A stretch of 64,000 bases of DNA from Cliona cf. orientalis (Eukaryota; Porifera; Demospongiae; Clionaida; Clionaidae), in assembly GCA_963930775.1 (NCBI GenBank), contig OZ005706.1:5700546-5764545 (forward strand), read 5' to 3'. The notes below the pieces were generated by a model, which ran no database searches, had not been told where the DNA came from, and was given only the letters and a program-made list of their open reading frames with translations. Made by a program: the position numbers and the translations under genes. Shown here in pieces: positions 37,316 through 63,483 of this stretch (its first letter is position 1; each line of letters begins with the position of its first letter).

Positions 37316-40300
37316 ATGTGTGATTTGTGTGTTGTGTGGTGGGCGTGGTTTGGGTCTCTCCTGCTCGGAGCGTCCTGGTTGGTCATTGCCCTGCGTCTCA
37401 TCATGTCTGGAGATGTTGAGCTCAACCCTGGACCTATCGACCAAGGTTGGTCTCTCAGCAATGCCTGCCATCAGTGCCATTAACGTTCATTAATGATATT
37501 CATGATATTATTTTTATAGAAGATCAAGAGATTCTCTCTAAAGTGGATGACACAACTTTGGGTATGTAATTATGTGATGATAAGATACCTGTGATTTTAA
37601 TACACTGTAGCTAGCTGCTGTATAGCTAAAATTTTTTGAGGGATACAATTTTGTTGTTTTCACGAATAACTAATCATAAGCACAGTACGAAAATCAGACC
37701 CCCCAAATAGCACAGTTGTACCATATATTATGTATGATGAGCTGAATAAAAATTAAATTCAAAATCACAACCGGGTATAGATTGCCTATATCCGTGAAAA
37801 TTGAATCCCTCAAAAATTTTCGGCTATATATGGCATACTATTCTATGAGCTGATGAATACACTCATTGATATTGATGGTTTTTTCTTCCCAGAGGAGGAT
37901 GACTGGAACATAGTGATTGATGAGTGCAGCTCAGTGGCTGCTAAGTGGGAGCAGGTCAGTGGGTTCCTTGGACTCCATCTCTCCCTCATCGACACCATCA
38001 AACAGAACCACCCTGGAGACAACGTTGGCTGTTGGAATGATGCCCTCAAGCAATGGATCAAACACAACTACAACACAAGCAAGTTCCATGAGCCGTCGTG
38101 GAGGTCTCTGCTCAAAGCCATCGCTAGGGTCGACAGGGCACTCTTCAAGAAATTAGCAGCTGAGCACCAAAGTAAGTATAAACTGAGTTCGATTTTTTAG
38201 AATATTTTTGAAGAGAGAAATTTATTTATATCTGTTACAGTGAGTGTAAGTGTTGAAGTGGATCATGTGGAGAGAGACATGGAGAGGTTGAAGGTGACAA
38301 CAAGTGATATCCAAGAGTCTAAAGGTCAGCTACAATAATAGCATTAATTCGGCGAATACTTTCATCAATATGTACTGCTATTTCATAGATAGCGGTAATG
38401 CTATAAAGTCACCTGATGCTGGTACACAGCCTGCGGACAGTGGAGGGTCTACAGTGGTACACCAAGGTACGTCTTTTTTTTGTGTGTGAATTTTCGGCCG
38501 ACAGTGATGGTGTATTATAATGTGTAGCTGGTGCAGTGAGTGATGGAGCACATCAAACTGAAGAGGGGTCCAGTCCAATGGCAACCGCCACCTCTCAGTC
38601 CAAAGGTTAGTCATAATTAATTTTTGAAATATTATTCAATATTCTTTGTTCAATGTGTTGAGTATAGTGTCTGCACAAAATCTAATATCAGAGTCTCCTG
38701 ATGCAACTCCAACTGCTGGCAGTAGGTTTCCCATTCTCAGTCCTGACAAACTGTGCAAGGAAGAAAAGGAGCAGCTTCACCAAAAGCTCTACACTGACTC
38801 GGAGGAGCTGATGTACAAGTTTCAAGAGATCTTTGCTGCCATGAGGGACTCTCTGAAGAGTAGACTCGTCTCCATCTCAGAAATATCCAGCCACTTGGAT
38901 TTACTCGGCCCGATAAAACCGACCTACCACGATTCCGGCCTGCCTCCATTACGCCACCAGCTACCAGGACTAGCTGACGCTAAGACTGTCGATGCTGTCA
39001 TGTCTGTTGTCAAGGACTACTGTTCATTCTTCAATTATCGTATGCTGGAGCACCTGGTGAACAAACTAGGAACAGAGCAAGACAAAGAGAAACTAGCTAA
39101 GTACAAGGAGGACTTTGCTAGGTACGGTGAGCGGCGCGTGTTTGAGTGTCCACCAAAAGTTGGTGAAATGAGGGAAGAGGGTTACTCCAACATGATCGTG
39201 ACACTAGATGATGCTTTTGATAGCTGTAGCACAAACCACATCCATAGCTTCATTGGCAACTTGCAGAAGTCGCTGAATATAACACATCTGAAGCTTTGTC
39301 GCATCAGTCTCGGAAGCATCAAGCTGATCTTTCAAATCCCTCTTTCTGTCCAGCAAGCCATCTTTCCTCTCTCCAGTGAGCAGGAAGCAGAGTTATCCAG
39401 TCTAGGTGTTGTACAGCTCTCCTGTGGGGACTACCAGTTCACTCCACAACAGACTGAGGTAAAGTTAACAGACCCTAGTGGATGGATTTGTTGAGTAGCT
39501 CCATTTTCTGTGTTTCCAGGAAGTGGTAGAGGAGCCAGCGACTGATGGAGACTCAGTCCACACTGATAGTGGGGCAACTGTCGACACCAAAAACACATGT
39601 GAGTTGGCATTAAATTTCTACTAGATATGATTTTCTTGTACTCTGGATCATCCATGTTTTTCAATGCTATACATATGGTTTTGAAGCTATATGGGAATGG
39701 GCCTTGGGACAATAGGCACTGATCCAGATATTTTGCATGGAAGGTGGCCGATGGAGTATCTACCCATAGTAAACTATACAGGTGCAAGGGTGTAGCTGAT
39801 TGATAATGGTAGACGTCTCCTATTATTTACGTTGCATAAAAGTGAAGGGGGTGGCTAGCCACCTTATCTACCCCCCTGGATCAGCCCCTAGTCATGAGCC
39901 TTATTTTGATTCCACAATAACGTGCTTGCACTTTACAATGGTGCACCTTTCCCTCTTTCAAATTAGACAGCAATAAACATCTATTCATCCTTTAATTGGC
40001 GTTTGTGTGTCAGTGAGTGAGCCTAAGTAATGCATCCATACATCCAGCGTGCGATACATGTATGGTGGTGCAATCATCAAAGTACGTAGCTTAGTATCGC
40101 TCTATGGATATTATTGCAAAATAGTCTGTTGCATATTCAAATGCCCCATACCAGTCTAGTTCGTGAGCTGTATATATGCTGGATTTTATAGGTGAGCGTG
40201 TCTGAGAAACTAAATTTTGCTCTGCCTATTAAACTTGGAGCTCAAATCTGCACTAATACTCAGCTGACGATCTATGACATTTTTTTACATCTGCCGTCGT

Positions 40301-41605
40301 AGCCGCTCGGGTTTGCCCAGCTACAGGCCTTGTATGACACTGAGTGTGTTTATGATACTTTGTGTGACTATAGGTGATGCTGAGTTGTCATCGATGGCTG
40401 CTGGACTGGCTGTGGGCAAACCTGGGGATACTGCCTCCATCAGTGCTGACTCAGCACTAGGAAGGAGCAGTGTTATCACTGGCACTACAGCCGGAGTGAC
40501 ACAGTTCAGTGAGGTGAGTCAGATCACTGACTGCTACTGGTCTGGGCTATTCTAATGTCCCATATTCCATTCCCAGGATCTGGTGGACAAAGAATTAGGT
40601 GATCTTGGAATGGGAATGGGACATGGTGTAGCTGGTCCTTCAACTGAAAATGAACTACATCTAGCATCAGGCAGGGGAGACTTGAAGAAAGTAAAAGAAC
40701 TCATTGAGGAGAAGCAATTTGATCCACTACAGAAAGAAGGCCAGTTTGGAATGAATGCACTTCACTACTCAGCTCAGTTTGGACAGCTACGAGTGCTGAG
40801 ATATTTCATCGAAGAGAGGGGATGTAGTCCAGCAAGTCAAGACAATCGAGCAGCGACACCTCTTCATTATGCAGCATATGGTAGACATCTTGATGTAGTC
40901 CAGTATCTTGTTGCCGAGCAACAGATGGATCCACTGTGTTGTGCTGACAATGGCGATACTCCACTACATCAAGCTTCTCAGGCTGGGGATATTAATGTCG
41001 TGAGATATCTAGTGAATGAACTAAGCAAGTTTCTTCCACTCAAGGACATAGTCACTAGCAGAGGCATTCAAGGAGCAGCTCCTATCCACCTCGCTGCTTT
41101 GTATGGACACTTGGAAATAGTGAAATTCTTCACCATTGAATTAAACAGCAACCCAAATAATGTTACTTCACCTGTTGAGTACCAGGGTAGGACTACTGGA
41201 GTTGGAGGTAGAATTGCCCTTCATCATGCTGCCCAAGGAGGACATCTGCACATCGTCAAATACTTAGTAGAACAGTGTAACTGTAATCCATCGCACTTGG
41301 ACAGTGAGAGAGCAACACCGCTGCACATGGCAGCTCAGTGGGGTCATCTTGAGGTAGTGCAGTACCTCACCCTGGAGCAGCACTGTGACCCACTGTGTAT
41401 GGCCAAGAATAACAACACTCCTCTTCATGCTGCTGCCTACAATGGCCACCTTCAACTTGTCAGATTCTTCATTGAAGTGCTCCACTGTCCTCCTGACATT
41501 AGAGGATGGCGCAACATGACACCACTGGAACAAGCACGTAGCCAAGGTCACCGCCATGTTGTGCAATATTTAATTTTAAAGTGTATTCATCCTAAACTTC
41601 AGTAA
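37316..41605 (+). CDS. Gene A: membrane segment-2A-DEATH-X-ankyrin protein (909 aa)
   Basis: Exons: 37316-37445, 37520-37561, 37893-38171, 38241-38324, 38389-38466, 38528-38605, 38668-39458, 39520-39598, 40374-40513, 40577-41605. They total 2730 nt with all phases joined. Residues 1-29 are very hydrophobic (WWAWFGSLLLGASWLVIALR). Residues 33-40 are DVELNPGP, the 2A ribosome-skipping motif. About 58-150 is a DEATH domain (IKQNHPGDNVGCWNDALKQW; PSWRSLLKAIA). About 231-494 is a sponge-type domain (DYCSFFNYRMLEHLVNKLG). About 568-909 holds nine ankyrin repeats (ATPLHYAAYGRHLDVVQYL). Predicted products are a 39 aa membrane or signal peptide and an 870 aa cytosolic protein beginning with Pro. The role is inferred to be innate signalling. 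The start at 37316 is the first ATG in frame; genes B and C have about 190 more residues before the 2A, so this N-terminus is shortened. Confidence 0.85.
37412..37435 (+). other. 2A ribosome-skipping motif, gene A
   Basis: Encodes DVELNPGP, matching the D-x-E-x-N-P-G-P consensus. By known 2A behaviour the Gly-Pro bond is not formed and translation resumes at Pro, so residues 1-39 would be released as a separate peptide. Confidence 0.85.
37623..37828. mobile_element. MITE in gene A intron 2
   Basis: AAAATTTTTTGAGGGATACA and TTTTCACG at the left pair with CGTGAAAATTGAATCCCTCA and AAAATTTT at the right. It lies between exons 2 and 3. Confidence 0.6.
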
Positions 41606-41859
41606 ATTTTATTATTATTTTAATTTGTGTTGATCACTGTGTGTAAGTCTTCTTTCGCTATTAATTTTATGTCTACATGTATCTATTGTTTTTTTGATAA
41701 TTAATTTTTGTGACAAAATACACACTATAATAGTGCTCATTGCTGATTGGATTGATGTTTGTGGTGGGTGGAGCGAGAGGTTGTATAATTTAATTAATCA
41801 GTTCCTTAAGCATTACATCATCAGACTCCGCCCCCAACACACATGCACCACACGCGTCA
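41606..41859. other. Gene A 3' flank
   Basis: AT-rich; the first 90 bp resemble the sequence after gene B (56594-56680), e.g. TTAATTTGTGTT and TCTTCTTTC, so it is probably 3' UTR. No other feature is seen before the inverted-repeat element. Confidence 0.55.
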
Positions 41860-44471
41860 CACAGGGAAAATGACCATCAAAGACGGTATAAACGGCTTTC
41901 CGTCTTTTTTTATCAACGGACTTATTTACGGTGCTAAGACGGACTTGTTGGAAGACGGACTCCGTGAAGACGCCGTAAAACAGACTCGTGGATTGCGGTT
42001 ACACTACCGCAGAGGACGGACAAGCGCAAGTTCACCGTCATCGCCACCACTATAGCCATTATAGCTAGCTATGTATTGTATGACCAGTTCATTATTCCCA
42101 TGTAGAGGCTGAAGAAGACGAGCTCACGATCCCTTATAAACGATGGTGACACCCGAGTACATGATAAATTCGAGGTTCCTGTTCTAAGATAAGTGATCTG
42201 TAGCTACGAATGATGCCTATATCACTGTTGAGTATGTTAATATGTATCAGTGTGGAGTATAAATGGTACCCCAGATAATGTGTTGTCATGAGTGAGGGAG
42301 GTTCTTGTGCTGTCTGGATGTTTCGTCTGTTGTAAGCTATGTGAATGAAAAGTCGTGTGTGTGTGTGTGTATCTGTGCTCGTAAATTTGAGTGAAAGCCT
42401 GAGTGGGTCTTGTGCTGTCTGGATGCTTCGTCTGTTGTCAGCAGTCTGTCGAGATGTTTCGTCTTAAGTCAGGCACCCCGAGTTAATGTGTGAATCAAAA
42501 GCCGTGTGTGTATGTGTATCTATTTTGGTAAATTTGAGTGAAAGCCTGAGTGGGTCTTGTGCTGTCTGGATGTTTCGTCTGTTGTCAGCAGCACAGATAC
42601 ATATACACATACAATGTCACACTTTTGACTCGCATATTAACTCGGGGTGCCTGACTTAAGACGAAACATCTCGACAGGCTGCTGACAACGGACGAAACAT
42701 CCAGACAGCAAGACCCGCTCAGGCTTTCACTCAAATTTACGAGCACAGATACACATACACACACGGCTTTTGATTCACACATTAACTCGGGGTGCCTGAT
42801 TTAAGACGAAACATCTCGACAGGCTGCTGACAACGTACGAAACATCCAGACAGCACAAGACACGCTCAGGCTTTCACTCAAATTTACGAGCACAGATACA
42901 CATACACACACGGCTTTTGATTCACACATTAACTCGGGGTGCCTGACTTAAGACGAAACATCTCGACAGGCTGTGCTTGTAGACTTGTATGAGAGCCTTG
43001 AGCCAACTATTCCTGAGCAGTAGATGCATTGCGATACATGTTATGTCAATTAATCACATGATATGCTAAATCCTGTGTGTTTCCTAAGTTCTCGATATTA
43101 TGTACGTGTGCCAACTATTTCCTTCCTTGGAGATGGCGTCTGGGAACGAGACTATTTGTGTGGAGATATTGTGCTATCTTATTTAGGTGAGTTTTCCTGA
43201 GAAGAAAGACTAATAATTTTCATGTGGTCTATACATAGCAAAGAGAAGATCCGCGGCCGCTGTCTGAATGTTGTACATCGTGAATTTACATGTATGACAA
43301 AATGGCATCACCAGGTATCATAATTATTATAATTATTAGTTGCTGTAGCTAGTTCGTCCTCTTCCAGTTATGAACATGAAGACTCATCATTCTATAGCTC
43401 TATTCTTCGTCACAAAAGAATGTTAGCTCGAGTTTAGTGCTTGTACTCCAGGTAAGTGCAATAACTATTAGCACTATATTATTGTATGTTATAGTTTTTT
43501 TATTCATAGGCCAAGTGTACCATATTATTATGATAATATCATTGAGGTAAGTTAAAGTCTAACTTACGCAATGTCATGTACTAGTGGTACCTTACCAAAG
43601 GTGAGTACGATGTCATATATTTTCGTATTGTCATATCTTATATGATATAGCTGATTATTTGTACTGCTTAGACGTCACTACAACACAAAGACCTATCAGC
43701 AAACAAGGTATATACCGCAGTGTGGTTTATTGCATACGGAGTTGTATTATCTTCAGGTTCTGCATAATTGGTAAGTGCACATTAATTTGCTTATTTATCT
43801 CAGTGCAGTTCAGTTACACATGATCAAAAGCACCAAACTTAACAAGTGCTAAGGTATATATCTGAATTTTATATTGCTGTTTCAAGTTGAACATTAACCT
43901 ACATTCAAGATTGATAGAAATTTGCAAGACCATGGCATACATCACCCAAACTGAGTCAGACTTTGAACGTACATCACTTGTAAGCTATCATACACAAATT
44001 TAATAGTGCTCATTCTGTTACTTAATCGTTGTTAATAATTTATATCTGATATCAGTTTACGTTCATTTTGTTAACCTATATTGTATATTTATGTCTTTAC
44101 AAAAAAAGCTATTTCACACTAGCCTAATAATAATGCGAGCTACAATTATTATCGCGAACGCGATTTATACAAGCGCTTGCAGACGGTGACCTTCGTACTC
44201 CGTGAATGTAACAAAGACGGTCAGAACGACGGTTCTATCCCAAAGTACGGTGTTGGCCACGGTATGAAACGGGAAAAAGACGTTGATTGACGGTACTGAA
44301 CGGATATCTTGACGGATGCCGTCTTCGAGGTCCGTCAAAAATAGTCTCAATACGGTATATATATGGACGGCACCGCGTAAGTCCGCGCGGTTTTCCGTGA
44401 TTGTCCCGGCCCGTCTTTGTGGCAAGTACGGCATAAATACGGCGCCGTATTTGATACCCATTTTCCCTGTG
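41860..44471. mobile_element. 2.6 kb inverted-repeat element with CACAGGG ends and ACGG-rich subtermini
   Basis: Left end CACAGGGAAAATG (41860); right end CATTTTCCCTGTG (44471). About 180 bp inside the left end and about 300 bp inside the right end are packed with GACGG/CCGTC motifs on both strands. This is the layout of subterminal binding-site arrays in CACTA elements. No transposase was found inside, so it would be non-autonomous. The target duplication is not clear. Confidence 0.55.
42290..42985. repeat. Inverted/tandem compound repeat, ~170 bp unit
   Basis: GAGTGAAAGCCTGAGTGGGT, TCTGGATG(T/C)TTCGTCTGTTG and CAGGCACCCCGAGTTAATGT occur in forward units up to about 42595 and reversed units (ACATTAACTCGGGGTGCCTG) from about 42640 to 42980. 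This gives a large palindrome of repeated arms inside the CACAGGG element. Confidence 0.75.
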
Positions 44472-45035
44472 ACAAAATCAATGATATCAAACATTTAGCC
44501 TGGCAAACAGAGCAGTATGCATAATAATTATTATGACGAGTTTCAGTAGCTAATTTGCGATTCAGTTACACTTTAGTGATTATGAGTCAAGTATCAGGCT
44601 AGACCAAACAATAATTATTACAACATCACCAAAAATAATATCAGTAAAACAAAAGAAAATTACCTCCGTAATACGCTAATAATATAGAACGCAAGCTAAA
44701 AAAAATTACGATTTTAAATTTCGTGCGATTTTCTGGTAAAGGTCGTCACGCGCTCATTATGAACATTTTCCTGCGCTAATTAGATCATGCGTTTGCCATC
44801 TGCGCATGTGTACATCTAGACTAGTACTATCAAGCAGCACACATGCACTTTAGCAATAATTATTGTGATGATGCCTTATACTCTCTAAACTCGAGGATCC
44901 GCACAGTATGCAATGAATTCTGTATCTATATTTAACTATCATTCTCTACAATGGTGATGATCATTCACTGACAAAATTTAATAAAACATGAGCTATGCAT
45001 AATAATAATAAAGCGGAGAAAAATAAACAATGTCA

Positions 45036-45677
45036 CTATAGCAAGTGTACATGTTGTTCATCAGCAGAGCCTTTACCACTGACGTTAATGTAAGTCACAG
45101 CTCCTGTAATTAGTTCACTCAGCACCAAAGCTCCACTATACTCCATCTCTAGACTGTAGTGGGATAAAAAAATTCATATTATTATGCCATTACTGTAGTG
45201 TCCCAGTGTATATTAAGGGAAGTTAAGGTAGGGAGGGGGGGGGGGATATTGAACTTGGGATAAAAGTTAAATAGCTGCATGATATTCCATGGATGAGGAA
45301 TCTATTTCGAAAATAATATTATGACATTGTGCCAGTATGATGCATACACCATACACAGTACACTGCATCAGATACCTTGGTGTAAAAGACACTTGAACTA
45401 GTTGTGACGTTGGGCCAGCATCAACCAGGGGTGCGGGCAAGAGTCCACCCTCACTGCACACCTCCAGCACAGTCTGTAGATCTGCATAATAATTTATACA
45501 AGTCAAAGATACAGTGTAACTGTCTGCTGATGTGACCATACCCCAAAGGCTTATGGAAAACTGACTAGGCCTTCATTGATTTTCACATCAATAATTATTA
45601 CACATCAGGGTTTCATCCAGTGGGGGGACAGGGGGAAGCCTCACCTCCAAACTCCCTAGGTAGCTCCCCCACCCCCC

Positions 45678-45712
<35 letters not shown>

Positions 45713-48700: not shown

Positions 48701-49855
48701 AGGCAGGACAGTGGAAATCCAACCCACTATCTTCATCATATTCCAACGTCAACCTGAGAATGGTACATACAATCATATAATATTATTATTATCATACAGT
48801 TGTACATGTACATGTATTGGTTCGATCATGTCTGTATTGATAGCAGTCAAACTTAATTGTATTAGAGCACTACAGGCCCTTCATAGCAAATCTTAAAAGC
48901 TTGCATATGTACTAACTTTGAATGCTCGATGGTGGTCATGATATCGATACGAAGGGGATCTATATCATATCCAGCGAGCCTCTTCACATTAGCAGGACTC
49001 TGGGAACAAAAAAATAACAATGACATATTACATGTACATGTACATACACAGTTTAACTTCATGATCTATCCCATACTCAGAAATAAACTATGCCATAAGA
49101 ACCACGCAAAAGGTATGCAAAAACCCGTTACATGCACTGTACATAAAGTTCTATGGTTAATTGTAAGTACATATAATTACAGTACATGTACATCCATATA
49201 ATATTATTGCCTTTATCTTCGATTCTGTTTGACGGTACATACATATACACACTTGGATTTGTCACCTACCTCTTCATCTAAGCTGATGTAGCCATTTGCA
49301 TAGGAAGTCAACTGATCTCCCAGTTCATTGAGAACCTCAATGGATGGCTGAAATGATACCTTCACTGTGCCATGGCCAAATGCTGGGATGGTCTACACAC
49401 GTGTATATACATGTACATGCAAATATAAATGCATGACAGTACACCTTAAGGTAATAATTATAGTGCTATAGTTAGTGGCATTAGTGGTGGGATTATACTA
49501 TATTACCCTGAGGTTCTTCAAGTGAATGAAAAAGTTCATGTATGTATTTTACATGTAGCTGGTACATGTAATTGTACAATCATAGCTATAGTATTATTAC
49601 ATGTACATGTCATGTGTCTTGAGGATAGCCCCAATTTTTATCCCAATCCAAAAATATAAATGCATGACAATACAACTTAGGCATGCTTAAGTTACGTTAG
49701 TGGCATTTGTGGTGGGGGGGATGGGATTATACTGGGATTCTTCAAGTGTAACTACCCAAAGGTCAAAAGTGTCATGAGAATACAGTGAGAACTGAATAGC
49801 TTACTATTTGTCTTGGATGGATATCAAATGGCTGATGGGAGCAAGTCCCTTCATG
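45036..49855 (-). CDS. Ciliary ASH/MSP-domain protein, HYDIN-like (5' truncated copy)
   Basis: Exons (minus): about 49855-49805 (truncated), 49392-49270, 48999-48917, 48753-48675, 48074-47904, 47496-47416, 46295-46133, 45481-45376, 45153-45036. Phases join throughout and the frame ends in TAG. The sequence shows beta-rich ASH/MSP signatures: FDIHPRQI followed by TIPAFGHGTVKVSFQPSIEV, HSLALINNGLSTVSIKLS, FPLCGSVSLPGLRVSPQQLD and SIRHLGSTTTLPLLLLNN. Such proteins (HYDIN, CFAP47, DLEC1) dock in the axoneme and drive ciliary motility. The exact orthologue is not decided. This is only the C-terminal part. The 5' end abuts a UBASH3 fragment at about 49855, so it has no promoter of its own here and may be dead despite the clean frame. 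Confidence 0.6.
45600..45712. repeat. G and C homopolymers, the C tract over 40 bp
   Basis: A G stretch near 45620-45635 and a C tract near 45668-45711 broken only by single A residues. It lies in an upstream intron of the ciliary gene; copy 1 has a G run at the matching place. Confidence 0.8.
46316..47106. mobile_element. 777 bp transposon with ~55 bp TIRs and CTATAAA duplication
   Basis: The termini at 46323 and 47099 are inverted copies: CATAGATCATATAGACTACG, then GGGATTGGAAACTGCTCACG, then TGAGCAATAGAGT. CTATAAA precedes the left end (46316-46322) and follows the right end (47100-47106). Copy 1 of the segmental duplication has a single CTATAAA at the matching site (about 5255-5261), which is the empty site. 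A 67-codon frame (46635-46838) has no known domain. The element is non-autonomous. If the 7-8 bp duplication is read as 8, hAT is possible. Confidence 0.85.
48118..48501. mobile_element. MITE with TACCGTAGAATCCCGCGATT termini
   Basis: 384 bp. The left end TACCGTAGAATCCCGCGATT, then ACGCCCCC, pairs with GGGGGCGTAATCGCAGGATT, then CTACGGTA. Internal CTTATACGCG motifs repeat. It lies in an intron of the ciliary gene; the region is deleted from copy 1. Confidence 0.8.
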
Positions 49856-50559
49856 AGCTCAGCTTGATGCTCGGGTCCTGGAGACCTTGGACGATGGCAT
49901 TTGCTGTCTGGACACAGCGCAGTGTGGGAGAGCAGTAGATGTACTGGATCCGTATTCCTTGCTCTCTCATGCCTTCGCCCATCAGTCGAGACTGGAAAAA
50001 ACCAGTTTCTGTGATTGGAGAGTCCTTCATGAAGTCGCTTGGTCCTCCTTTGCGTTTTGGAATCTCCTTTGGCATGTTCAGGTTTCTCCGGTGATAGCAG
50101 CCGTTTGTGTCAAATGAGAGCTGGATCCACTGCTTACCAAATGTCACGTCGACTCTCTCTGCGTGTCTGAAGTTAAAAAGCCGTCTTTTTTGCATAAAGT
50201 TCTTCGACATTTCCTTGATCAGGGAGCAGTCCAGCTGCGTCATCGTAGCACTGTTCGTCTTCGGTCCTTCGTAGGGAGTCTTTTTGAGAGAGGGACGGGG
50301 GGCAGACGGATTTTGAAGGGGAGGGGAGAGAGTCACTCCCGGAGATTACCCATGACCTGTAGGGAGAGAATTTGGATGGCTGAACACTTTAGGATATTCA
50401 ATGTAATGGTAGCAAACAATTGCCTATTGACTCTACTATTAATATTAGCTATGTATACCTGTGTAGAGTCTAGCAGTCTGAGTCTTTTGTCTTCTCGATG
50501 AAGTTGCCGGGATAGAGGCCGGACATGCCTGAGTTCTGAGAGGTGCTAAAGAACCAACC
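49853..50559 (-). pseudogene. UBASH3-like (TULA) phosphatase fragment, copy 1
   Basis: Exon 50559-50459 encodes the end of an SH3 domain (GWFFSTSQNSGMSGLYPGNF). Exon 50356-49853 runs into a histidine-phosphatase domain ([60 protein letters not shown]). The first catalytic His is kept, in RHAER rather than the usual RHGER. Relative to copy 2, about 110-130 bp of linker are missing and fuse the two parts. The frame stops at 49851 where the ciliary fragment begins, so the second catalytic His and the C-terminus are absent. The SH3 exon also has a TAG in the SH3 frame. The family dephosphorylates tyrosine kinases and adaptors; this copy should be inactive. Confidence 0.75.
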
Positions 50560-52244: not shown

Positions 52245-52619
52245 GATACCCTATCAGAAAGCAACCACGTGTAAATATGTGCTGAGTCAGCAGTTTCTAC
52301 ATGTGACTTACGAGCCCCGCCCACTGCAGATGGGGATCCCCCCTCCCCTCGCGGCTGGGCACGAGACTAGCGAAGCAGTTTTACCATAATTCAGCTCATC
52401 AAGCGTAGAAACCGTCGTCTCGGTGAAGAGATTTGTGATCGATCTACCAAACATCTTTATTGCTTCATTATTTTGTGGAACTGACAGCAAGAAAAGTCTC
52501 CCTGTACTCTGACGTGTGTAGATTAACACTAGTCTCGCGCGCCACACCCCCTAGATAAACACTCGCCATTTTGTTGCTTGTTGTACACCAGTGGAGGTCC
52601 CATCACCAGTGCTCCGATG
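52245..52619. promoter_or_regulatory. Divergent intergenic region between TOM40-like copy 1 and gene B
   Basis: 375 bp separate the two starts. The landmarks CGAGCCCCGCCCACTG, CAGCGAAGCAGTT and GAAGAGATTTGTGATCGATC are shared with the equivalent region upstream of gene C (60526-60870). CCCGCCC is an Sp1-like motif. The regulatory role is inferred from position and conservation between the two copies only. Confidence 0.5.
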
Positions 52620-55600
52620 ATGGATGGAGTTGATCTCGACGTTTCCCAGGCTCGCGCCGATCTTCTCCCTGACAAGTATGATCGTCGCCGGATCAGCGGG
52701 GTCCTTGCAATTAGGAGGTTGTCCAGCCGTCACTACAAGACATGCAAGAGGCAGATGAGCGAGGGGGACGTGTGTAGTGTATGGGTGCTACTGCTCCTTC
52801 TCGTCTGCTCCCTGCATCACTTGATTCACTCCAAGCAGTGGCGGTCATTCAAGAGACGCCATTGGCTCCTTGTCTTCTTTGTCTCTTTGCCACTGGGTTT
52901 TTGTTGGAAGATCGTCAAGAAACTGTTGATTGTGGTTTGTAAGATCGCATTCAAACTGTTGGCTGTAGTTTGGAAGATCGTCAAGAAACTGTTCAAACTG
53001 TTGGCTGTAGTGTGTGGTACATTGGCCATCGGCTGCAAATTTTATTATCTTCTATGGCTGTTTCTCAAATGGTGTTTCCTAACGGCAGAACTTTGTAAAC
53101 AGTTAGACTACAATGCCACCAGACCGAGCCGTGATGTGGTGGGATCAAAGGTCACCAAGGAGCCAGTTAGCCATGTTTCTTGTGAGGTATTCGTGTACTC
53201 TGGAGTGGGGTGGGTGTGGTCTGGGTCAATCCAGCTTCGAGCAGCTCAGTTGGTCATACATCAACAACTCATCATGTCTGGAGACGTGGAACTCAACCCT
53301 GGACCTCTCGACCAAGGTATTCCAATCCTGTCCTTATAAGTTTTGCATAGATATGGTAGCGATTTAATGCTTAACAAAGTATTATTCTCTCTTTATTTAG
53401 ATCAAAAGATTGAAGAAGTTCTTATGACTGTTGATGACAAAACCTTTGGTATGATTTCAATATTTGCCATCTGCAGCTGCCACAACTATGCAACTTGTTT
53501 TATATCATTGCAGAAATAGAGGACTGGAATGTTGTGGTGATAGAGTGCAAGTCACCAGCTGCAAAGTGGAAAGAGTTGAGCATCTCCCTCGGCCTGTCAT
53601 GTGACGTGATCGATGACATCAAGGGATCTGGGGACAACTACCACTGCTGGAGTGAAGCCCTCAAGCACTGGATCAAACAAAACTACAACACAGACACGTT
53701 TGGTAGACCTTCATGGAGGAGTCTTCTCAAAGCTGTGGCAGAAATTGACAAGCTTTTATTTAATAGATTGGCTGAAAAGCACTCTCAGTCTGGTATGTGT
53801 ATGTACAAGGTTGTAGTGACTATCGTGATATTCTATAATATTTGTAGCTTCCAGTGACGAACCAAAAGAAAGTAATAATTCTCAGGAAGAAAATGTTGCA
53901 CACGTACAAGGTACATATACATACTACATTGACCTCCTATAGTTGAATGTGTGTGCAGGATTAATCATTAGATTCTCTCTGATAGACAAATCTGCTTCTC
54001 TCAGGACCAGTACACCAACAGCTGTGGTTGCTAGGCCTCGTTTCACCTTTCACTGCTTGAATTTGAAGGATATGAGTGACGAGAGGAGACGAGAACTGCA
54101 CCAAAAGCTTTATGCTGATTCAGAAGATATGATATACAAATTCCAGGAACTATTTACGTCGACAACGGACTCTTTAGTGAAGAGAAATATTTCAGCAAAA
54201 ACACTGGCTCGTCATTTAGAATGCTTGGGACATTTGAAGCCAACGTTTGATGATTCCGGTGAACCTGTTTTCAGACATCAATTGTCTGAACTAAGAAAAT
54301 CTGAGTCTGTCGACGATGCCATGTCAGTGGTCAATAAGTACTGCTCATTCTTTAATTATCGGATGGTGGAATTGATCATACAGAAGCTAGGAACTGAGCA
54401 AGACAAAGAGAAGTTAGCCAGGTACAAGGAGGATTTTACTAAGTACGGTGAGAGACATGTGTTTGAGTGTCCATCGGAAGTTGGTGAATTTTATGAAGAA
54501 GGACAAGCGAATATGTTTGTGATACTGGATGATTCATTTGACAAGTGCAACGGGAACCATTTATCAGCATTTGTCAGCAACTTGCAGAAGATTTTGAACA
54601 TCTCCGATATATCACTACGACTATGTCGCATTGGACCTGGAAGCCTGAAGCTGATCTTTCAACTCTCTCTCATTGTTCAGCAAGCCATCTTTCCCCTCTC
54701 TAGTGACCAGGAGGCTGAGCTAGTCTGCCTTGGTGTTATACAGCTCTCCTGTGGGGACTACCAGTTCTCAGTAGATGATATGATGGTAAGGATCACAGTT
54801 GTGTTACTTTCCTGTACCCTGTGTGTGGGGAGTGGGTGAAGGTCTTCAGCTTGCTAGATTACTTTACAGCAGCAAAGGCTTAGCTTCATACATGTATGTC
54901 TCATGTTCAAACTTACGCCATAAAAATATGCTATGTTCCTATATTACTACATGTATATGTATCTACCTTCAATTTTGTTACAGGAAGTGGTAGAGGAGCC
55001 AGCTAACACTGATAGTGGAGGGAGTATGGTGGACAGCATGGAGGCCTGTGAGTGATAACACTTTACTTGTCATGCAGCATTGCATGACTCTCCTTGTAAC
55101 CTGCGACCCCTGCCCCCTCTCCGTCTATGCCTCTCCTCTAGGATTGTATGTTCAATCAAGCGACATCTATATTACTACCAGTTGAGAGAATCTATAAAAA
55201 ACATTTAATATCATCCCATTTAGTGATGATTAGATAATTACTCCCAAAAGAGATTTATTTTTTTGAGCATCATCTCAAATTGAAGTGATTAATATTGAAT
55301 ATCTATGACTCATACATGCACACTAAGGCATTCTGTATACACATATCTACTTCCTCAGGTGATGCTAAATCAGCAGTAGCTGTCCAGGGTGCTAGGTATG
55401 GACTGGCTGTGGGCAAACCTGGGGATACTGCCTCCATCAGTGCTGACTCAGCTCTAGGGAGGAGCAGTGCTATCACTGGCACTACAGCTGGAGTGACACA
55501 GTTCAGTAAGGTGAGTCAGATCACTGACTGCTACTGGTCTGGGCTGTTCTAATGTCCCATATTCCATTCCCAGGATCTGGTGGACAGAGAATTAGGTGAT

Positions 55601-56593
55601 CTTGGAATGGGAATGGGACATGGTGTACCTGGTGCACCAACTAAAAATGAACTACATCTAGCATCAGGCAGGGGAGATTTAAAAAAAGTAAAAGAACTCA
55701 TTGAGGAGAAGCAATTTGATCCACTACAGAAAGAAGGCCGGCTTGGAGTGAATGCTCTTCACTACTCAGCTCAGTTTGGACAGCTTGGAGTGCTGAGATA
55801 TTTAATCGAAGAGAGGGGATGTAGTCCAGCAAGTCAAGACAATCGAGCAGCAACACCTCTTCATTATGCAGCAGGTGGTAAACATTTTGACATAGTCCAC
55901 TATCTGGTTGCCGAGCAACAGATGGATCCACTGTATTGTGCTGACGATGGCACTACTCCGCTACATCTAGCTTCTCAGGCTGGGGACATTAATATCGTGA
56001 GATATCTAGTGAATGAACTAAGCAATTTTCTTCCACTCAAGGACATAGTCACTAGCAGAGGCATCGCTGGACAAACTCCTATCCACCTAGCTGCTTTGTA
56101 TGGACACTTGGAAATAGTAAAGTTCTTCATTACTCAATTAAACTGCGACCCTAACATTGCTGTACCTGTTGAGTACAAGGGTAAGACTACTGGAGGTGGA
56201 GGTAGAATTGCCCTTCATGTTGCTGCCCAACGAGGACATCTGCACATCATTAAATACTTAGTAGAACAGTGTAACTGTAATCCATCGCACTTGGATAGTA
56301 AGAGAGTAACACCGCTGCACATGGCAGCTCAAGATGGTCATCTTGAGGTAGTGCAGTACCTCACCCTGGAGCAGCACTGTGACCCACTGTGTATGGCCAA
56401 GAATAACAACACTCCTCTTCATGATGCTGCCTACAATGGTCACCTTCAACTTGTTAGGTTCTTTGTCGAAGTGCTCCACTGTTCTCCTGACATTGGAGGA
56501 TGGCGCAACGAGACACCACTGGAACAAGCACGTAGCCGAGGTCACCGCCATGTTGTACAATATTTAGAGTCTATTCATCCTAAACTTCAGTAA
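52620..56593 (+). CDS. Gene B: multi-helix membrane module-2A-DEATH-X-ankyrin protein (1040 aa)
   Basis: Exons: 52620-53316, 53401-53448, 53514-53792, 53848-53910, 53986-54785, 54984-55047, 55359-55510, 55574-56593; sum 3123 nt, all in phase. Residues 1-228 form the N-terminal module: a soluble start (MDGVDLDVSQARADLLPDKY), then several hydrophobic helices with repeated basic/leucine blocks (KIVKKLLIVVCKI; KIVKKLFKLLAVVCG). DVELNPGP is at 222-229. DEATH domain about 249-341 (GDNYHCWSEALKHWIKQNYN; PSWRSLLKAVAE). Domain X about 363-629 (KYCSFFNYRMVELIIQKLG; LSCGDYQFS). Ankyrin repeats about 702-1040. Ribosome skipping would give a 228 aa membrane protein and an 812 aa DEATH-ankyrin protein. The start is the ATG that matches gene C; another ATG lies directly before it at 52617. 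Signalling in innate immunity or cell death is inferred. Confidence 0.87.
53283..53306 (+). other. 2A ribosome-skipping motif, gene B
   Basis: Encodes DVELNPGP at the end of exon 1, preceded by IMSG as in gene A. The exon 1/2 junction lies nine bases beyond it, so the whole upstream product is encoded by one exon. Confidence 0.87.
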
Positions 56594-56761
56594 ATTTTTA
56601 ATTTGTGTTCATCACTGCATGTAAATCTTCTTTCACTATTAATTTTATATGTGTCTATTGTTTTTCGATTTTTAATAATTTTATTCTTTAGTCAAAAAAT
56701 ACAGGAAAATAGTGCTCGTTGCTGAGAGTCTAACATCAACAATCACTGCAGGCATCTCCAA

Positions 56762-58226
56762 TCAAATCGGATGTTTGGTGCATGAGTGAGATCTAGAGGT
56801 GGGATGGGAGGATCGATAAAGTCCCAAGTGCTGTTCTTTCCAAACTCGCTCTCCTGACACACACACACAAAGTCCACAGTAGGGGATCTTCTGGACAATC
56901 TTGGTCAGCTCCTGGGCGGTGCGGCGCTGAGCTCCAACTAGCTGTTTGGTACAAGCTTCCAGCGTAGCAGCGTGACCAACAAACATCACATTGCCAGAAG
57001 CTGGCCCAATCGTCTTCAGAATCAGCCGGGTGATGTTAAACATTCTCTTGTAGAATTCCAAGTGCGTCTCATTTGGTTTGAGGTCTTGAAGAGCGACCTG
57101 CGACACATAACTGGTGTCCACGATTAGGCCACATTTGCTGAGCTCAGCAGGTGTCATGAATGTGGGGAAACTCCACGCTAGCCACTCAAAGAGCCCGTTC
57201 TCGATCCTCAGCTTGATGCTCGGGTCCTGGAGACCTTGGATGATGGTGTTTGCTGTCTGGACACAGCGCAGTGTGGGAGAGTAGTAGATATATTGGATCC
57301 GTATTCCTTGCTCTCTCATGGCTTCCCCCGTCAGTCGAGACTGAAAAAAAAACAGTTTCTGTGATCAGAGAGTCCTTCATGAAGTCGCTTGGTCCTCCTT
57401 TGCGTTTTGGTATCTCCTTTGGCATGTTCAGATTTTTCCGGTGATAGCAGCCGTTTGTGTCAAATGATAGCTGGATCCACTGCTTACCAAACGTCACATT
57501 GACTCTCTCTGCGTGTCTGAAGATAAAAGCCGTCTTGGTCTGAAATCTTGAGGTGGGATGGGCGGAGCATTCTCCTCAATCGGGCTACCTCCGTCTGCGA
57601 TATGATTGGTCACACCATGATCCTTTTTCTTGATTCGTGGTTTTTGTACTTTTGCGTAAAGTTCTTCGACATTTCCTTGATCAGGGAGCAGTCCGGCTGC
57701 GTCGTCATAGCACTGTTCGTCTCCGGTCCTTCGTAAGGGGTCTTTTCGAGAGAGGGACGGGGGGCAGACGGATTTTGAAGGGAAGGGGAGAGAGTCACCC
57801 CCGGAGATCACCCATGACCTACTGTGATGTAGTTACAAAATTATACATTGAAGGCCGAATAGTATAATGTAGGAATGTTGGAAGATGGAGTAGGGGGGAT
57901 CTTTAGAATGTAAAATTATGTCAGAAACTAAAGGGGGCGCCAGCCCTTGGATTATTTGCTATCGTCAGACATTGAATATCCTAAAGAGTTTAGCCTTCCA
58001 AATTCTCTCCCTACAGGTGTCCGATATGCAATATAAGCTACCCTCAATAATGTATTAACCACCGTACATAAAGAGCCTATAACTGATTCTATTAAAATCA
58101 ATATAACCACTGTAGCTACGTCTACCTGTGTAGAGTCTAGCAGTCTGAGTCTTTTGTCTTCTCGACGTAGTTGCCGGGATAGAGGCCGGATATGCCTGAG
58201 TTCTGAGAGGTGCCAAAGAACCAGCC
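56762..58226 (-). pseudogene. UBASH3-like (TULA) phosphatase, copy 2, longer
   Basis: Exon 58226-58126 encodes SH3 sequence (GWFFGTSQNSGISGLYPGNY). The region 57818-56762 encodes a linker (YDDAAGLLPDQGNVEELYAK; VQKPRIKKKDHG) and the histidine-phosphatase domain: [52 protein letters not shown] and VMFVGHAATLEACTKQLVG. Both catalytic His regions are present and the C-terminal stop is at 56762. Breaks: TAG in the SH3 frame (shared with copy 1), a one-base shift between the linker and [11 protein letters not shown], and a run of nine A near 57344 that shifts the frame relative to copy 1 (six A). The intron between the two exons is inverted relative to copy 1. The UBA domain is not present. Probably a pseudogene. 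Confidence 0.75.
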
Positions 58227-58467
58227 TTCACTATTTGTGAGCGTGTGAGTGTGTGAGAGTGTGTATTAGTATGTAAGAGAGTGTGTGTACATAATTTTAT
58301 TGTATATATTATGTATCTTGGTATGCATTTTGATATGGTAAAGGTCAACAAATATACGTGCATTTGCTGTGCATGCCCGTGTGTATTGTAAGGGTCAACA
58401 ATTTCAGAAACTAAGTAGCTAAATTAGCACCGCTTGAGTTAAGCCTTCTTCCAAACATGTTTGGACC

Positions 58468-58657
58468 TACCGTAAATCTGGAAATTTTCGTTGTAAAAAT
58501 ATTTTCGTAGTCGATGGTGGCTACGAAAATTAATCTTACGAAAATTAGCATGCACTATTATCGCTAATGCGGTAAGGGGTCGTTCCTACGAATATTTTTT
58601 ACACAAAAATTTATCATACGAAAGTTTCTTTACACAAAAATTTCCAGATCTACGGTA
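58468..58657. mobile_element. 190 bp MITE with TACCGTAAATCTGGAAATTT termini
   Basis: The left end TACCGTAAATCTGGAAATTT is mirrored by AAATTTCCAGATCTACGGTA at the right. Internal ACGAAAATTA and TACACAAAAATTT motifs repeat. Copy 1 of the unit lacks it. Confidence 0.8.
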
Positions 58658-59194
58658 TATTAATATGACACATATAACTACCGACCATAAAAATATTCCC
58701 ATACTTACATGTGTACCACAATAATAACTACAGTACATGTACATGTGCATGTGATAGATATGTAATCTAATTAGTGGTGGCACAGTTTGGCGTTTATTGG
58801 TAAACATATCTCCCTGGATTGCTGGTGATAGGCAGAGAGAGAGGTGATAGGGTGACCAGACCCAACACAAGGAGGTGGTGGGGGTCACTCCAGCCAATCA
58901 ACCAGCCAGCCAGGCAGAGCAGTCTATATGCCAACCAATTAATGCTAACCGATGTTTATAGTAGCTACATGTACTATGCTTGTACGTGGCAATATAACTT
59001 GCAGAAGTGTTTGGCTGACATAATTAGCTATAGGGAATTGGGGGAGTTCCTCTCACAGATTTATATCGGAAGATAAATTTTATTTATTGTATGCACATAT
59101 TATATTACCGTACTTAATCTAATACTACGCATGGAAAAAAATTTCAATTTTGAAAAATGCATGTTTTTCTGGTAAAGGTCGTCAATCGCTCCAT

Positions 59195-59700
59195 ATTACA
59201 TCCCCAGTATAAATTTACTTTTTTGCGGTTATTAGGTAATTATGTTGTAATTATGATGTAACCTATGTCGTCATAGCGCTAAAATTCAGAGCCTTTACAG
59301 AACACTTCTGAGACCTGAAAATCCACAGAATCGTATATTAACTTACATACATATCCAGCGAATACATTAAAAGCTGAGTGCTACTTTCTCCGACAAGTAA
59401 TGCCGGCCGAACTTCACGCGTTCTCTTGGCTGACGTAATCCTGTGGATAAATAAAGCTAGCCTTGCGCTATTTATAGCACGCGTCATGCTACGACCGATC
59501 TGAAGTTCGGAAGCTGTACTGTGCTGTCGAGTTCATCTCCTTTGATTGAAGCATCGAAATTCGAAGTCGAAAGTTGATCTTAGACTCCATCTCTGCGATT
59601 GAGGCCCCGGCATCGATGTGTGTATTGACGACCTATACCACATGCACCATTAGAGCTATGCAGCCACTGGGGATGTGGTCAAGGGTTCATATAAACGTTA
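59195..59700. repeat. Dispersed repeat inserted in copy 2 unit (see 18000-18480)
   Basis: Begins with ATTACATCCCCAGTATAAAT and a GTAATTATGATGTAACCTAT tail, then follows 18000-18480 closely. The duplicated unit upstream of gene B lacks it between the matching points (about 51130 and 59080-59780), so it was inserted after the duplication. Confidence 0.7.
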
Positions 59701-59899
59701 TGAGAATTCATAAAATGCTAATTTATTGCGTTAAATTGGAACATGCATTGTATTCGATTAACTACGGTATGTATAACTTATGCACGTTGAACCCACATAA
59801 TAAACTGCATATTCAAAAATATTAATCAGATGCTGGCATCAATTGTGCACCAAATCAACAGTGTGCATATTGATTTAGCTCGCCTCATCTTCTCCGATT

Positions 59900-60525
59900 G
59901 CTTTAGAGCCAACGTAGGTAACTATGTTGCTCCAAACTGCCACTGAGATGGCTGGACATCAGAGCCAAGTGTGATGGTGTGGGTGGTCTGGAAATATCTA
60001 TTCAATCCTTTCTGTATGATGATCTTAGCTCCATCAAACACCTGCGGATACAATTGCTCTGCAAGGGAGGGGGGTAGAGAGAAAGAAATCATTAGGACTC
60101 CACTGGTACATTACATCTAAAATTTCATAATAAGCCTGATGTGCCCCATGAAATTATTTATCACTGTCTTCATTACCGTCACTGTCGTTATAATTTCCAC
60201 CTTTTAATTTTCTTCCAATTTCTTCGTAGCTTCCTGGGTTTGATAGCACTGCACATTCTCTGCTGTGACCTCTGAACCACTGGCCTTCTGTTGGGAGTCT
60301 GCAGCAGGAACTGACGGAGGTGCTGCAGAGACGAAACGTCATACACTGTTATAATTTGGTGTTATATTAGGCTGGAAAGCTTAGCTTTCTACAGTGCTAG
60401 CTATATACTGTGTACAATAGATAAGTCTTAAAAGCTTCTAAAAGAAGCTTGAGTGAAGGCTCACCTGCCGTGATCGGGGGAAGGGGAAGAAGGGATGAAG
60501 ATGAACAGCTCGCTTTGCTAGACAT
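59900..60525 (-). pseudogene. TOMM40: TOM40-like N-terminal exons, copy 2 (frameshifted)
   Basis: Exon 60525-60465 has an intact ATG (MSSKASCSSSSLLPLPPITA). The next exon (about 60323-60205) starts like copy 1 (PPSVPAADSQQKASGSEVTA), but an extra few bases in GTGCAGTGCTATCAAACCC shift the frame away from SNPGSYEEIGRKLK. The third exon (about 60060-59890) encodes FDGAKIIIQKGLNRYFQ and QPSQWQFGAT, then TAG because of an insertion. Copies 1 and 2 therefore carry different lesions. Confidence 0.7.
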
Positions 60526-60870
60526 GATACCCATATATAGCTGTTCTAAGAAAACAACCACGTACAAATATGTGCTGAGTCAGCAGCTTCTACATGTGAC
60601 TTACGAGCCCCGCCCACTGAAGACGGGAATCCCCCTCCCCTCCTGGCTTCCTCCACCGCAGTGCCAGCGAAGCAGTTCTGCCATTTGCCTCTCGTCAAGC
60701 GTAGAAACCGTGGTCTCCGTGAAGAGATTTGTGATCGATCTACCAATCATCTTTATTCTTTCATTATTTTGTGGAACTGACAGCAAGAAAAGTCTCCCCG
60801 TACTCTGACGTGTGTAAATAAACATCCGCCACTTTGTTGCCTGTTGTACACCAGTGGAGGTCCCATCACC
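60526..60870. promoter_or_regulatory. Divergent intergenic region upstream of gene C
   Basis: Equivalent of 52245-52619, with conserved CGAGCCCCGCCCACTG and GAAGAGATTTGTGATCGATC. A bidirectional promoter is inferred. Confidence 0.5.
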
Positions 60871-61515
60871 ATGGATGGAGTTGATCTCGACGTTTCCCAG
60901 GCTCGTGCCGATCTTCTCCCTGACAAGTATGATCGTCGCCGGATCAGCGGGGTCCTTGCAATTAGGAGGTTGTCCAGCCGGCACTACAAGAGGCAGATGA
61001 GCGAGGGGGACGTGTGTAGTGTATGGGTGCTACTGCTCCTTCTCTTCTGCTCCCTGCATCACGTGATTCACTCCAAGCAGTGGCGGTTGTTCAAGAGACG
61101 CCATTGGCTCCTTGTCTTCTTTGTCTCTTTGCCGCTGGGTTTTTGTTGGAAGATCGCAAAGAAACTGTTGGCTATAGTTTGTAAGATCGTGTTCAAACTG
61201 TTGGCTATAGTTTGTAAGATCGTAAAGAAACTGTTCAAACTGTTGGCTGTAGTGTGTGGTACATTGGTAATCGGCTGCAAATTTTATTATCTTCTGTGGC
61301 TGTTTCTCAAATGGTGTTTCCTAACGGCAGAACTTTGTAGACAGTTAGACTACAATGGCACCAGACCAAGCGGTGATGTGGTGGGGTCCAAGGAGCCAGT
61401 TAGCCACGTTTCTTGTGAGGTATTTGTATATTCTAGAGTGGGGTGGGTGTGGTCTGGGTCAATCCAGTTTCGAGCAGTTCAGTTGCTCATACGTCAACGA
61501 CTCATCTTGTCTGGA

Positions 61516-61539
61516 GATGTGGAACTCAACCCTGGACCA
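61516..61539 (+). other. 2A ribosome-skipping motif, gene C
   Basis: Encodes DVELNPGP as the last eight codons of exon 1, preceded by ILSG. The exon ends immediately after the Pro codon plus one base. Confidence 0.87.
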
Positions 61540-62749
61540 AGTGAGATTATGAGTGATATTATTCATCATAGAATGCTTATGACGATAATATGTATTGTAT
61601 TTTCTAGATGGTCAAGAAGTGGAGGCAGTACTTGCATCAGTGAACGATACTGTGTTGGGTAAGTGGTGCAATGTGCGAAATCTAATGCCCGTGTATGGAT
61701 CTGAAATTCATTCGGATTCTCTCTGCAGAAAAAGAGCATTGGAATATTTTGATCATCGAGTGTAAATCGTTGTCTAGCAATTGGGAGAAAGTCAGTGGAT
61801 ATCTGGGCCTCTCCTTCGAATTGATTGACACTATCAAACGGGACAACCCCAGGGACAGCACTGGCTGTTGGAATGAAGCCCTCAAGGAGTGGATCAAACA
61901 GAACTACAACACGAAGAAATTTGGTCGACCATCATGGAGGAGTCTTCTCAGAGCTGTGGCTGAAGTAGACAAGCGTCAGTTTCAGAAGTTAGCAGCAGAG
62001 CATCAAGGTGAGAAACTAATATTCCATCATTTACTCTGTAACTATGATACTTTGTTCTCTATAGCTGCCAGTGTAATATGTCAAGGCGGTGAAGAGAGCA
62101 TTTCCAGTGAAGTTCAAACCAGCAGTAGTGAATCTAAAGGTTTGTTGTAAATTAACAATAATAATTTACTAGTTATGTACATGTATATGACTTTCATAGT
62201 CTCTATACTGTTTTATCATCTTCTTAATGTTAATGCTATGTGTTGTATCATTTTTCAGAACCGGTAGGGACGTTTGCTGAGTCAGACCCAACAGTACCCA
62301 CCATGATATCTCCTCAACAAAAGGAGCAGCTTCGTCGAAAGCAATACTTCGAGTCCGAGCAAATAATATACAAATTTCAGAAACTATTCACATCCACGAA
62401 GAAATCTCTACGTGAGGAAAAAGTCTCCGTTGCTGAGCTTATCAGTCATTTAGAGTGCTTAGGATCAATCAAACCAACATATGTAGATATTGGTCGATCT
62501 CCACTGCGAAGCCAGCTACCAGGGCTAGCTGACGCTAAGACTGTTGATGCTGTCATGTCCGTTGTCAAGGACTACTGTTCATTCTTCAATTACCACATGG
62601 TGGAGCACATCATCGATGAATTCGGGACAAAGCAAGACAAGGAGAACATGGCCAGCTACAAAGAGGACTTCACCAAATATGCCGAGTGCTGCATTACACA
62701 ATGTCCTTCAGAGGTTGGGAAAATGAGTGAAGAGGGGTGCGTATGGCAT

Positions 62750-62945
62750 TCCAACACTGACAAAATTGGCAAGCTCAAATATATGATCAAACTTGAGTCA
62801 GATATATGGTCAAACTCAAATATGTGGTCAAAATTGTTGCCTATGTATGGTCAAAGCCAAATATATAGTCAAATTTTATATGATCAAACTCAAATACATG
62901 GTCAAACGAAAGTTATGGTCATTTTTCCCATATATGGTCAAACAT
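62750..62945. repeat. Short tandem repeat of ATATGGTCAAA units
   Basis: About ten degenerate units of 17-20 bp (ATATGGTCAAACTCAAAT). One further unit lies at 63384-63395 beyond the element at 62955-63383, so the element seems to have inserted into this repeat. Confidence 0.75.
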
Positions 62946-62954
62946 GCAGCAAAT

Positions 62955-63383
62955 ATATCAGGCGCGTAGGCAGGGGGGCTTCCATGTTGCCTGGAAGCCC
63001 CCCCTCCCCCCTCCTCACTCCCCGACAAACCATATCTATGGTACAAGTGCGCGCGCGTTAAGTTGGGATAGCAGCATGCTCCGCCTACTCAGTGGGCGAA
63101 CTTTGACCCTGCAACTCAAGGACCAGAATGGTGGAGAGAAGATAGAAAAAGCTTGAGTATTTTTTACGAAAGTGAGCGCTCCCGCTTCTAGAGGTATGGC
63201 ACTGGAAAACATTGTATGAAAAAAACATGACATTGTATTGTTCATAATAGTAGCTATTGTCACTTATCGACATCTATACCGATTTATGAAAATTTTTACG
63301 GGCATGTGCAAGTGCATGCACTCATTTTATACCACTTCTTCCCCTATGGAAGCCCCCTAAAACTTTTTCTGCCTACGCCACTG
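62955..63383. mobile_element. ~430 bp inverted-repeat element in gene C
   Basis: GGCGCGTAGGCAGGGGGGCT, then TCCAT, at the left pairs with ATGGAAGCCCCCTAAAACTT, then TTTCTGCCTACGCC, at the right. The flanking ATATGGTCAAA units on both sides are consistent with insertion into the tandem repeat. Confidence 0.65.
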
Positions 63384-63483
63384 TATATGGTCAAAATTCA
63401 AGAAGATCCCTTACATAATAGTCACGGATATGACGTATTAATTGGACCGACGTGACGTCAACAGAATCATAGCCAGAATCCGC

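Follow-up and report, generated by a model that had tools for sequence, protein, structure and literature searches.

Three predicted genes in a 64,000-nucleotide stretch of the sponge Cliona cf. orientalis (assembly GCA_963930775.1, contig OZ005706.1, positions 5,700,546 to 5,764,545 of the forward strand; hereafter the window) begin with a hydrophobic coding exon that ends in a 2A (StopGo) motif and continue into exons for a DEATH domain. We call these genes A, B and C. It is likely that their first exons are working StopGo leaders, which would split the leader from the DEATH protein during translation. The placing of 2A sequences ahead of DEATH adaptors, in the window and genome-wide, is strongly supported by motif counts and predicted genes; the skipping, splicing, localisation and immune role of these genes we infer from sequence.

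The motif DVELNPGP is matched exactly, codon by codon, at three places in the window, all on the plus strand, and at none in 100 dinucleotide shuffles of it, which bears out the claim of a first-pass annotation that three genes carry it. The spans below cover the first 23 of its 24 bases.

37412..37434, plus strand: 2A core of gene A (codon match)
53283..53305, plus strand: 2A core of gene B (codon match)
61516..61538, plus strand: 2A core of gene C (codon match)

In the genome as a whole there are 105 codon matches to DVExNPGP and 47 to DIExNPGP, and reversed-pattern controls gave none for either, therefore the motif is far above chance. When one mismatch is allowed the DVE pattern has 171 matches, against 5 in the control. 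The near-misses number 66, 47 of them V-to-I and 19 not; the V-to-I form of the D(V/I)E core is counted as canonical in the portion of a study of viral StopGo motifs used here (PMC12846837). The absence of non-synonymous change in the 2A core was not counted as proof, the near-miss spectrum being the fairer test.

We placed 151 sites (104 of the 105 DVE and all 47 DIE) and read the surrounding sequence of the 104 DVE sites. A glycine precedes the aspartate in every one of these, and in 102, including A, B and C, the upstream residues form a leucine-rich hexapeptide, in which at least three of four positions are from LIVMF and [ASC]G comes next. When the 48 bases beyond the 2A are scored for donors, the top GT falls in phase 1 at 100 of the 104; four of these calls are doubtful, the GT being distant or weak (C1:21878939, C1:10026199, C10:760125 and C17:639417).

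Contig C1 has thirteen near-identical DIEVNPGP sites between 18.0 and 35.5 Mb, present on that contig only among the matches listed; they make up 13 of the 47 DIE sites and are perhaps one repeat family. The 2A copies are thus not all independent. Decaying retrotransposon or virus remnants, captured beside DEATH genes, would be a scarcely credible source of the leaders. The C1 sites fit such an origin, as does locus L020, where a 2A stands in frame ahead of a PHD-finger open reading frame (ORF); it is opposed by the small number of disrupted copies (the 19 near-misses other than V-to-I, with 5 in the control), by the recurrence of DEATH linkage and by the retention at 24 loci of the long upstream module described below. 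A captured origin, later put to use, is possible.

Linkage to DEATH was assessed with two queries (the best 150 of 544 and the best 150 of 371 candidates) and with a profile run on 24 long loci, which include 7 kb of downstream DNA. The first-pass annotation had proposed a genome search for DVELNPGP beside DEATH domains; run with D[VI]ExNPGP, it finds a same-strand DEATH match in the 8 kb downstream of no fewer than 105 of the 151 sites (at least 84 of 104 DVE and at least 21 of 47 DIE). The median distance is 339 bp, and at least 92 sites have their match within 1.5 kb. Within that distance the listed DEATH matches include no case, for any of the 151 sites, of one upstream on the same strand or of one on the opposite strand. 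The profile found a sense-strand DEATH domain in 23 of the 24 long loci, at a distance above 5 kb in L015 and L021, and an antisense one in none. The remaining locus, L020 (C1:21871962-21880961), has the PHD-finger ORF downstream (Pfam).

These positions bear on whether the 2A exon is a separate short gene, or an alternative transcript, that is not joined to the DEATH exons. Public protein matches to two spliced queries never hold both a 2A leader and a DEATH domain, as such an arrangement would have it. It is nevertheless very unlikely, given the phase-1 donor at nearly all DVE sites, the phase-1 acceptors that fit it in A, B and C, and the short same-strand distance to DEATH, no listed match within 1.5 kb being on the wrong side or strand. 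Three public proteins considered as joined exons (P0168, P0170 and P0173) were set aside; intron read-through or fused exons could account for them, and they do not contain a 2A leader.

The models of A, B and C rest on splice landmarks, and their exon joins are predictions. Gene A (37316-41605) has 10 exons and gene B (52617-56593) has 8; all internal junctions are GT/AG and the phases agree, in keeping with the earlier description of both as phase-perfect. In these models the introns after exon 1 and the others that precede the exon for the domain we term X (a helical part followed by a TRADD-like N domain) are in phase 1. Gene A reads as follows.

37316..37445, plus strand: exon 1, hydrophobic leader of 40 residues with DVELNPGP at its end, then three codons and one base; phase-1 donor
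37520..37561, plus strand: exon 2, small linker exon (gene model)
37893..38171, plus strand: exon 3, DEATH domain (gene model, Pfam, profile)
38241-38324, 38389-38466 and 38528-38605, plus strand: exons 4-6, linker (gene model)
38668..39458, plus strand: exon 7, X, helical part and TRADD-like N domain (gene model, Pfam)
39520-39598 and 40374-40513, plus strand: exons 8-9 (gene model)
40577..41605, plus strand: exon 10, ankyrin repeats and stop (gene model, Pfam)

The 2A of gene A occupies residues 33-40, after a 32-residue leader with a single hydrophobic stretch (residues 6-24); hydrophobic segments of all leaders were called by the Kyte-Doolittle method.

A profile built from nine DEATH segments, the exons of A, B and C included, matches the death domains of FADD in PDB at 4.5e-05, which upholds the DEATH domain assigned after the 2A. 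Taken alone, the gene A exon reaches 0.0042 against Pfam Death, short of the curated cut-off, and no Pfam Death match is seen for the gene B exon. The next domain, X, had been called sponge-type; it is present, and resolves into the two parts named above. Among 38 homologues, 31 give a match to PF20694, the TRADD-like N domain, at E values up to 0.1 (best 2.2e-05), in the C-terminal half of X where positions are shown. The window copies score 17.1 bits (A) and 16.5 bits (B), under the curated cut-off of 23.7. A structure model of X (predicted local distance difference test, pLDDT, 74.9; predicted template modelling score, pTM, 0.52) has what may be a ferredoxin-like C-terminal half. Foldseek with this model gave no match at E <= 0.001, and for the N-terminal helical half the best PDB profile match is only E 0.082. 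Ankyrin repeats, earlier assigned to A and B alike, are a Pfam match in A and are read in B from similarity to A, the Pfam scan of B having covered its first 630 residues. In the same scan NACHT was absent from the whole model of A and from those 630 residues of B.

Genes B and C carry a much longer sequence ahead of the 2A. In gene C, as in B, four exons precede the X exon, which in C is interrupted.

52617..53316, plus strand: gene B exon 1, 222-residue hydrophobic module then DVELNPGP; phase-1 donor
53401-53448, plus strand: gene B exon 2 (gene model)
53514..53792, plus strand: gene B exon 3, DEATH domain (gene model, profile)
53848-53910, plus strand: gene B exon 4 (gene model)
53986..54785, plus strand: gene B exon 5, helical part and TRADD-like N domain (gene model, homologue profiles, structure model)
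54984-55047 and 55359-55510, plus strand: gene B exons 6-7 (gene model)
55574..56593, plus strand: gene B exon 8, ankyrin repeats (similarity to A)
60871..61540, plus strand: gene C exon 1, 215-residue hydrophobic module and 2A; phase-1 donor
61608-61658, plus strand: gene C exon 2 (gene model)
61729..62007, plus strand: gene C exon 3, DEATH domain (gene model, DEATH profile set)
62065-62139, plus strand: gene C exon 4 (gene model)
62259..62741, plus strand: gene C exon 5, first part of the helical and TRADD-N domain up to an insertion (gene model, X search)
62742..64000, no strand assigned, ending 299 bases past the window: inverted-repeat element in gene C exon 5, 1558 bp

The proline of the 2A is residue 230 in B and 223 in C, with four hydrophobic segments before it in B and three in C. 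The first-pass annotation had given all three genes a hydrophobic N-terminal module; this holds for B and C, and A has its short leader only. When the B module with its 2A was used as a query, the 40 genome matches corresponded by coordinates to 24 module loci and 12 A-type loci, the latter matching over the last 34-38 residues only. All 24 module loci coincide with exact 2A sites; one has an internal stop (C13:249271). The modules of B and C are open frames under moderate constraint. Pairwise comparison of full modules (seven sequences, 21 pairs) gave ratios of non-synonymous to synonymous change (dN/dS) of 0.18-0.65, and for this reason the module reads as a constrained but fast-evolving protein. 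Among public proteins, 45 of the 46 matches to a module-2A-DEATH query carry D[VI]ExNPGP and the 46th ends before that point; these include copies from this genome, and as the query contained the 2A their recruitment was not blind to it. An AlphaFold model of the module (pLDDT 66.6, pTM 0.33), consisting of one implausibly long helix, was not used.

The constraint on the module as a protein argues against a 2A that is mainly a stop, at which the leader is released, few ribosomes resume and output of the DEATH protein is throttled; active 2As usually yield both products. Termination is one of three outcomes named for 2A in the portion of the sea-urchin study drawn on here (PMC4981915), and we regard such throttling as decidedly improbable. 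Alternatively, the 2A may be inactive and the leader or module may anchor a full-length DEATH/ankyrin protein in the membrane, as a receptor-adaptor. The number of hydrophobic segments in B and C favours this, as do the transmembrane segments reported for sponge NLRs in the part of PMC12909245 cited. It leaves unexplained the canonical upstream context of 102 of the 104 sites and the dominance of the permitted V-to-I change among near-misses, and is on balance unlikely.

We therefore return to working StopGo leaders. The nascent leucine-rich peptide ending in SGDVExNPG would block formation of the glycine-proline bond during translation. The leader would be freed and, with translation restarting at the proline, a DEATH-(TRADD-N)-ankyrin protein would be left in the cytosol. 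The leader of A-type genes would be a signal-like hydrophobic peptide, and an unskipped share of the product may enter the membrane or secretory route (dual targeting). In B- and C-type genes the leader would be an entire protein with several hydrophobic segments, so that one mRNA would yield both a membrane protein and a DEATH adaptor. The earlier suggestion that the 2A couples a membrane protein to an adaptor accordingly suits B and C; it does not suit A, with its short signal-like leader.

A wider reading is offered tentatively, at somewhat less than an even chance: that a shuffled first exon, made of a signal or membrane module and a 2A, is a general switch on DEATH immune genes of an early-branching animal. 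The module released from B and C would then act at the membrane as a sensor or effector, its amount tied in fixed ratio to that of the DEATH-TRADD-N-ankyrin partner, and the two-protein StopGo gene would extend across NLR and non-NLR classes.

Linkage beyond DEATH was followed through X and NACHT. For X, 104 loci were compared, from 150 listed of 264 candidates. At 49 of these a same-strand 2A lies no more than 5 kb upstream, and 10 have a 2A on the wrong side or strand, the genes standing in tandem. Among X loci of at least 200 bits, 42 of 56 have a 2A within 5 kb upstream. For NACHT (best 103 of 490 candidates), at least 12 2A sites precede a match within 15 kb, and two NACHT matches have a 2A on the wrong side or strand among the matches listed. 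NACHT was found at 2A loci L012 (3.1e-21) and L017 (4e-22). L023-L025 have DEATH and a long ORF, which in L023 is GTPase-like by reading. Their assignment as Roc proteins was rejected: Pfam Roc gave E 0.0015, sub-cut-off, on 600 residues of L023 and was absent at 0.001 on the full ORF.

Gene C was earlier given an endpoint at 63061, which has to be withdrawn. The stop there falls within the 1558-bp insert, which has perfect inverted repeats of 125 bp and identical 7 bases on either side, and the remaining domain lies beyond the window. The X search recovers the two halves of the domain at C18:5762854-5763282 and C18:5764845-5765120. Unless its RNA loses the insert, gene C is a disrupted copy, since the insert splits the X exon and holds the stop.

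Several observations weigh against working leaders on DEATH genes. The interruption of gene C is one. The 2A core's lack of change is partly built in, because an exact motif match was the criterion for choosing sites. The public protein matches to the two spliced queries show no join of a 2A exon to a DEATH exon, and proteins translocated into the endoplasmic reticulum upstream of a 2A can inhibit the reaction, according to the portion of PMC2978324 consulted. DEATH is lacking among the matches listed at 46 of the 151 placed sites, including the 13 DIEVNPGP sites on C1 and L020; some of the 46 have X or NACHT downstream. Of the 56 strong X loci, 14 lack a D[VI]ExNPGP in the 5 kb ahead of them; four of these have a 2A 5-12 kb away that may belong to a neighbour. 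At L033, an X locus with no listed 2A, the 2.9 kb upstream contained no relic of leader, module or A-type DEATH exon. Finally, at least 28 DEATH paralogues on C10 (7.5-8.8 Mb) have no D[VI]ExNPGP nearby among the matches listed, and they therefore form a 2A-minus comparison set within the same genome.

Unusual arrangements occur at some 2A loci. At L053 (C5:1037576-1038055) the hydrophobic stretch of the leader is present in triplicate tandem before the 2A. At L066-L069 (C10:759.8-774.4 kb) two differing 2A sites stand 370 and 204 bp apart on the same strand, an arrangement that occurs in two neighbouring places of opposite orientation; these are possibly two 2As in one gene. At L020 and L085 (C13:1374287) the 2A continues in frame into a cysteine-rich stretch, with the Pfam PHD-finger in L020. 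We take both to be probable non-LTR (long terminal repeat) retrotransposons, so that 2As would occur in two settings in this genome. In the window, histidine-phosphatase ORFs (PF00300) lie on the minus strand at 49851-50342 (1.2e-07) and 56765-57364 (5.7e-09), antisense between the tandem 2A genes; they are presumably UBASH3/TULA-like.

Known settings of 2A are RNA viruses, retrotransposons and sea-urchin NLRs. A survey of cellular and viral 2A sequences by Rao et al. in 2025 may already list genes of the present kind. Among the papers listed, literature searches found none on 2A in sponges. What appears new, with priority uncertain, is that one animal genome holds so many sites, that carriers other than NLRs occur, that the 2A exon has a phase-1 donor, and that some leaders are a long membrane module. 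The term '2A-like' in one sponge paper (PMC5890393), in the part retrieved, is the name of an unrelated protein.

The sea-urchin proteins, SpNLR2A (Roulston et al. 2016, PMC4981915, cited in part), share with the window genes an N-terminal 2A, a hydrophobic leader, DEATH-containing immune proteins and the core motif. An N-terminal 2A of 26 residues is present in 14 of 87 NLR entries; one such leader gave about 80% skipping in vitro, and when skipping was blocked the cargo went to the secretory route. By analogy this leader is the best precedent for gene A, whose 2A likewise lies within a short hydrophobic N-terminal leader (40 residues from methionine to the 2A proline). Genes B and C, with 230 and 223 residues to that proline, do not fit the short-leader type. 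The sea-urchin carriers are NLRs, whereas the window genes, from a host of another phylum, have TRADD-N and ankyrin and, in A and the first 630 residues of B, no NACHT; in two of the three the module exceeds 200 residues.

The leucine-rich class of viral StopGo (Li et al. 2026, PMC12846837, in the portion used), namely motifs 2 and 6 with a leucine-rich hexapeptide ending in [ASC]G upstream, shares D(V/I)ExNPGP after an LLLLSG-like hexapeptide. Here, in contrast, the 2A stands near the end of the first exon of many intron-containing cellular genes.

Among sponges, Amphimedon has a large lineage-specific expansion of proteins with a death-fold unit, TRADD-N and then often ankyrin repeats, the same domain order as in the window genes (Kaur et al. 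2021, PMC8195603, in part); the main text of that paper does not contain '2A-like', 'NPGP', 'skipping' or 'signal peptide'. Membrane segments are predicted on NACHT receptors of Dysidea avara (PMC12909245, in part), in a main text without '2A-like', '2A peptide' or 'NPGP'. A 2A between segment and receptor would, by contrast, release the receptor. If the leaders described here do work as StopGo, predicted 'membrane-bound' sponge NLRs would be read differently and many natural 2A sequences would become available to test. The 2A-plus and 2A-minus paralogues would be a natural set for studying the need of immune receptors for translational switching. Cellular organisms are said, in the portion of PMC12846837 cited, to use StopGo never or only rarely; that view would change with the approximately 150 canonical sites counted here in the genome of a single animal, roughly two-thirds of them before DEATH.

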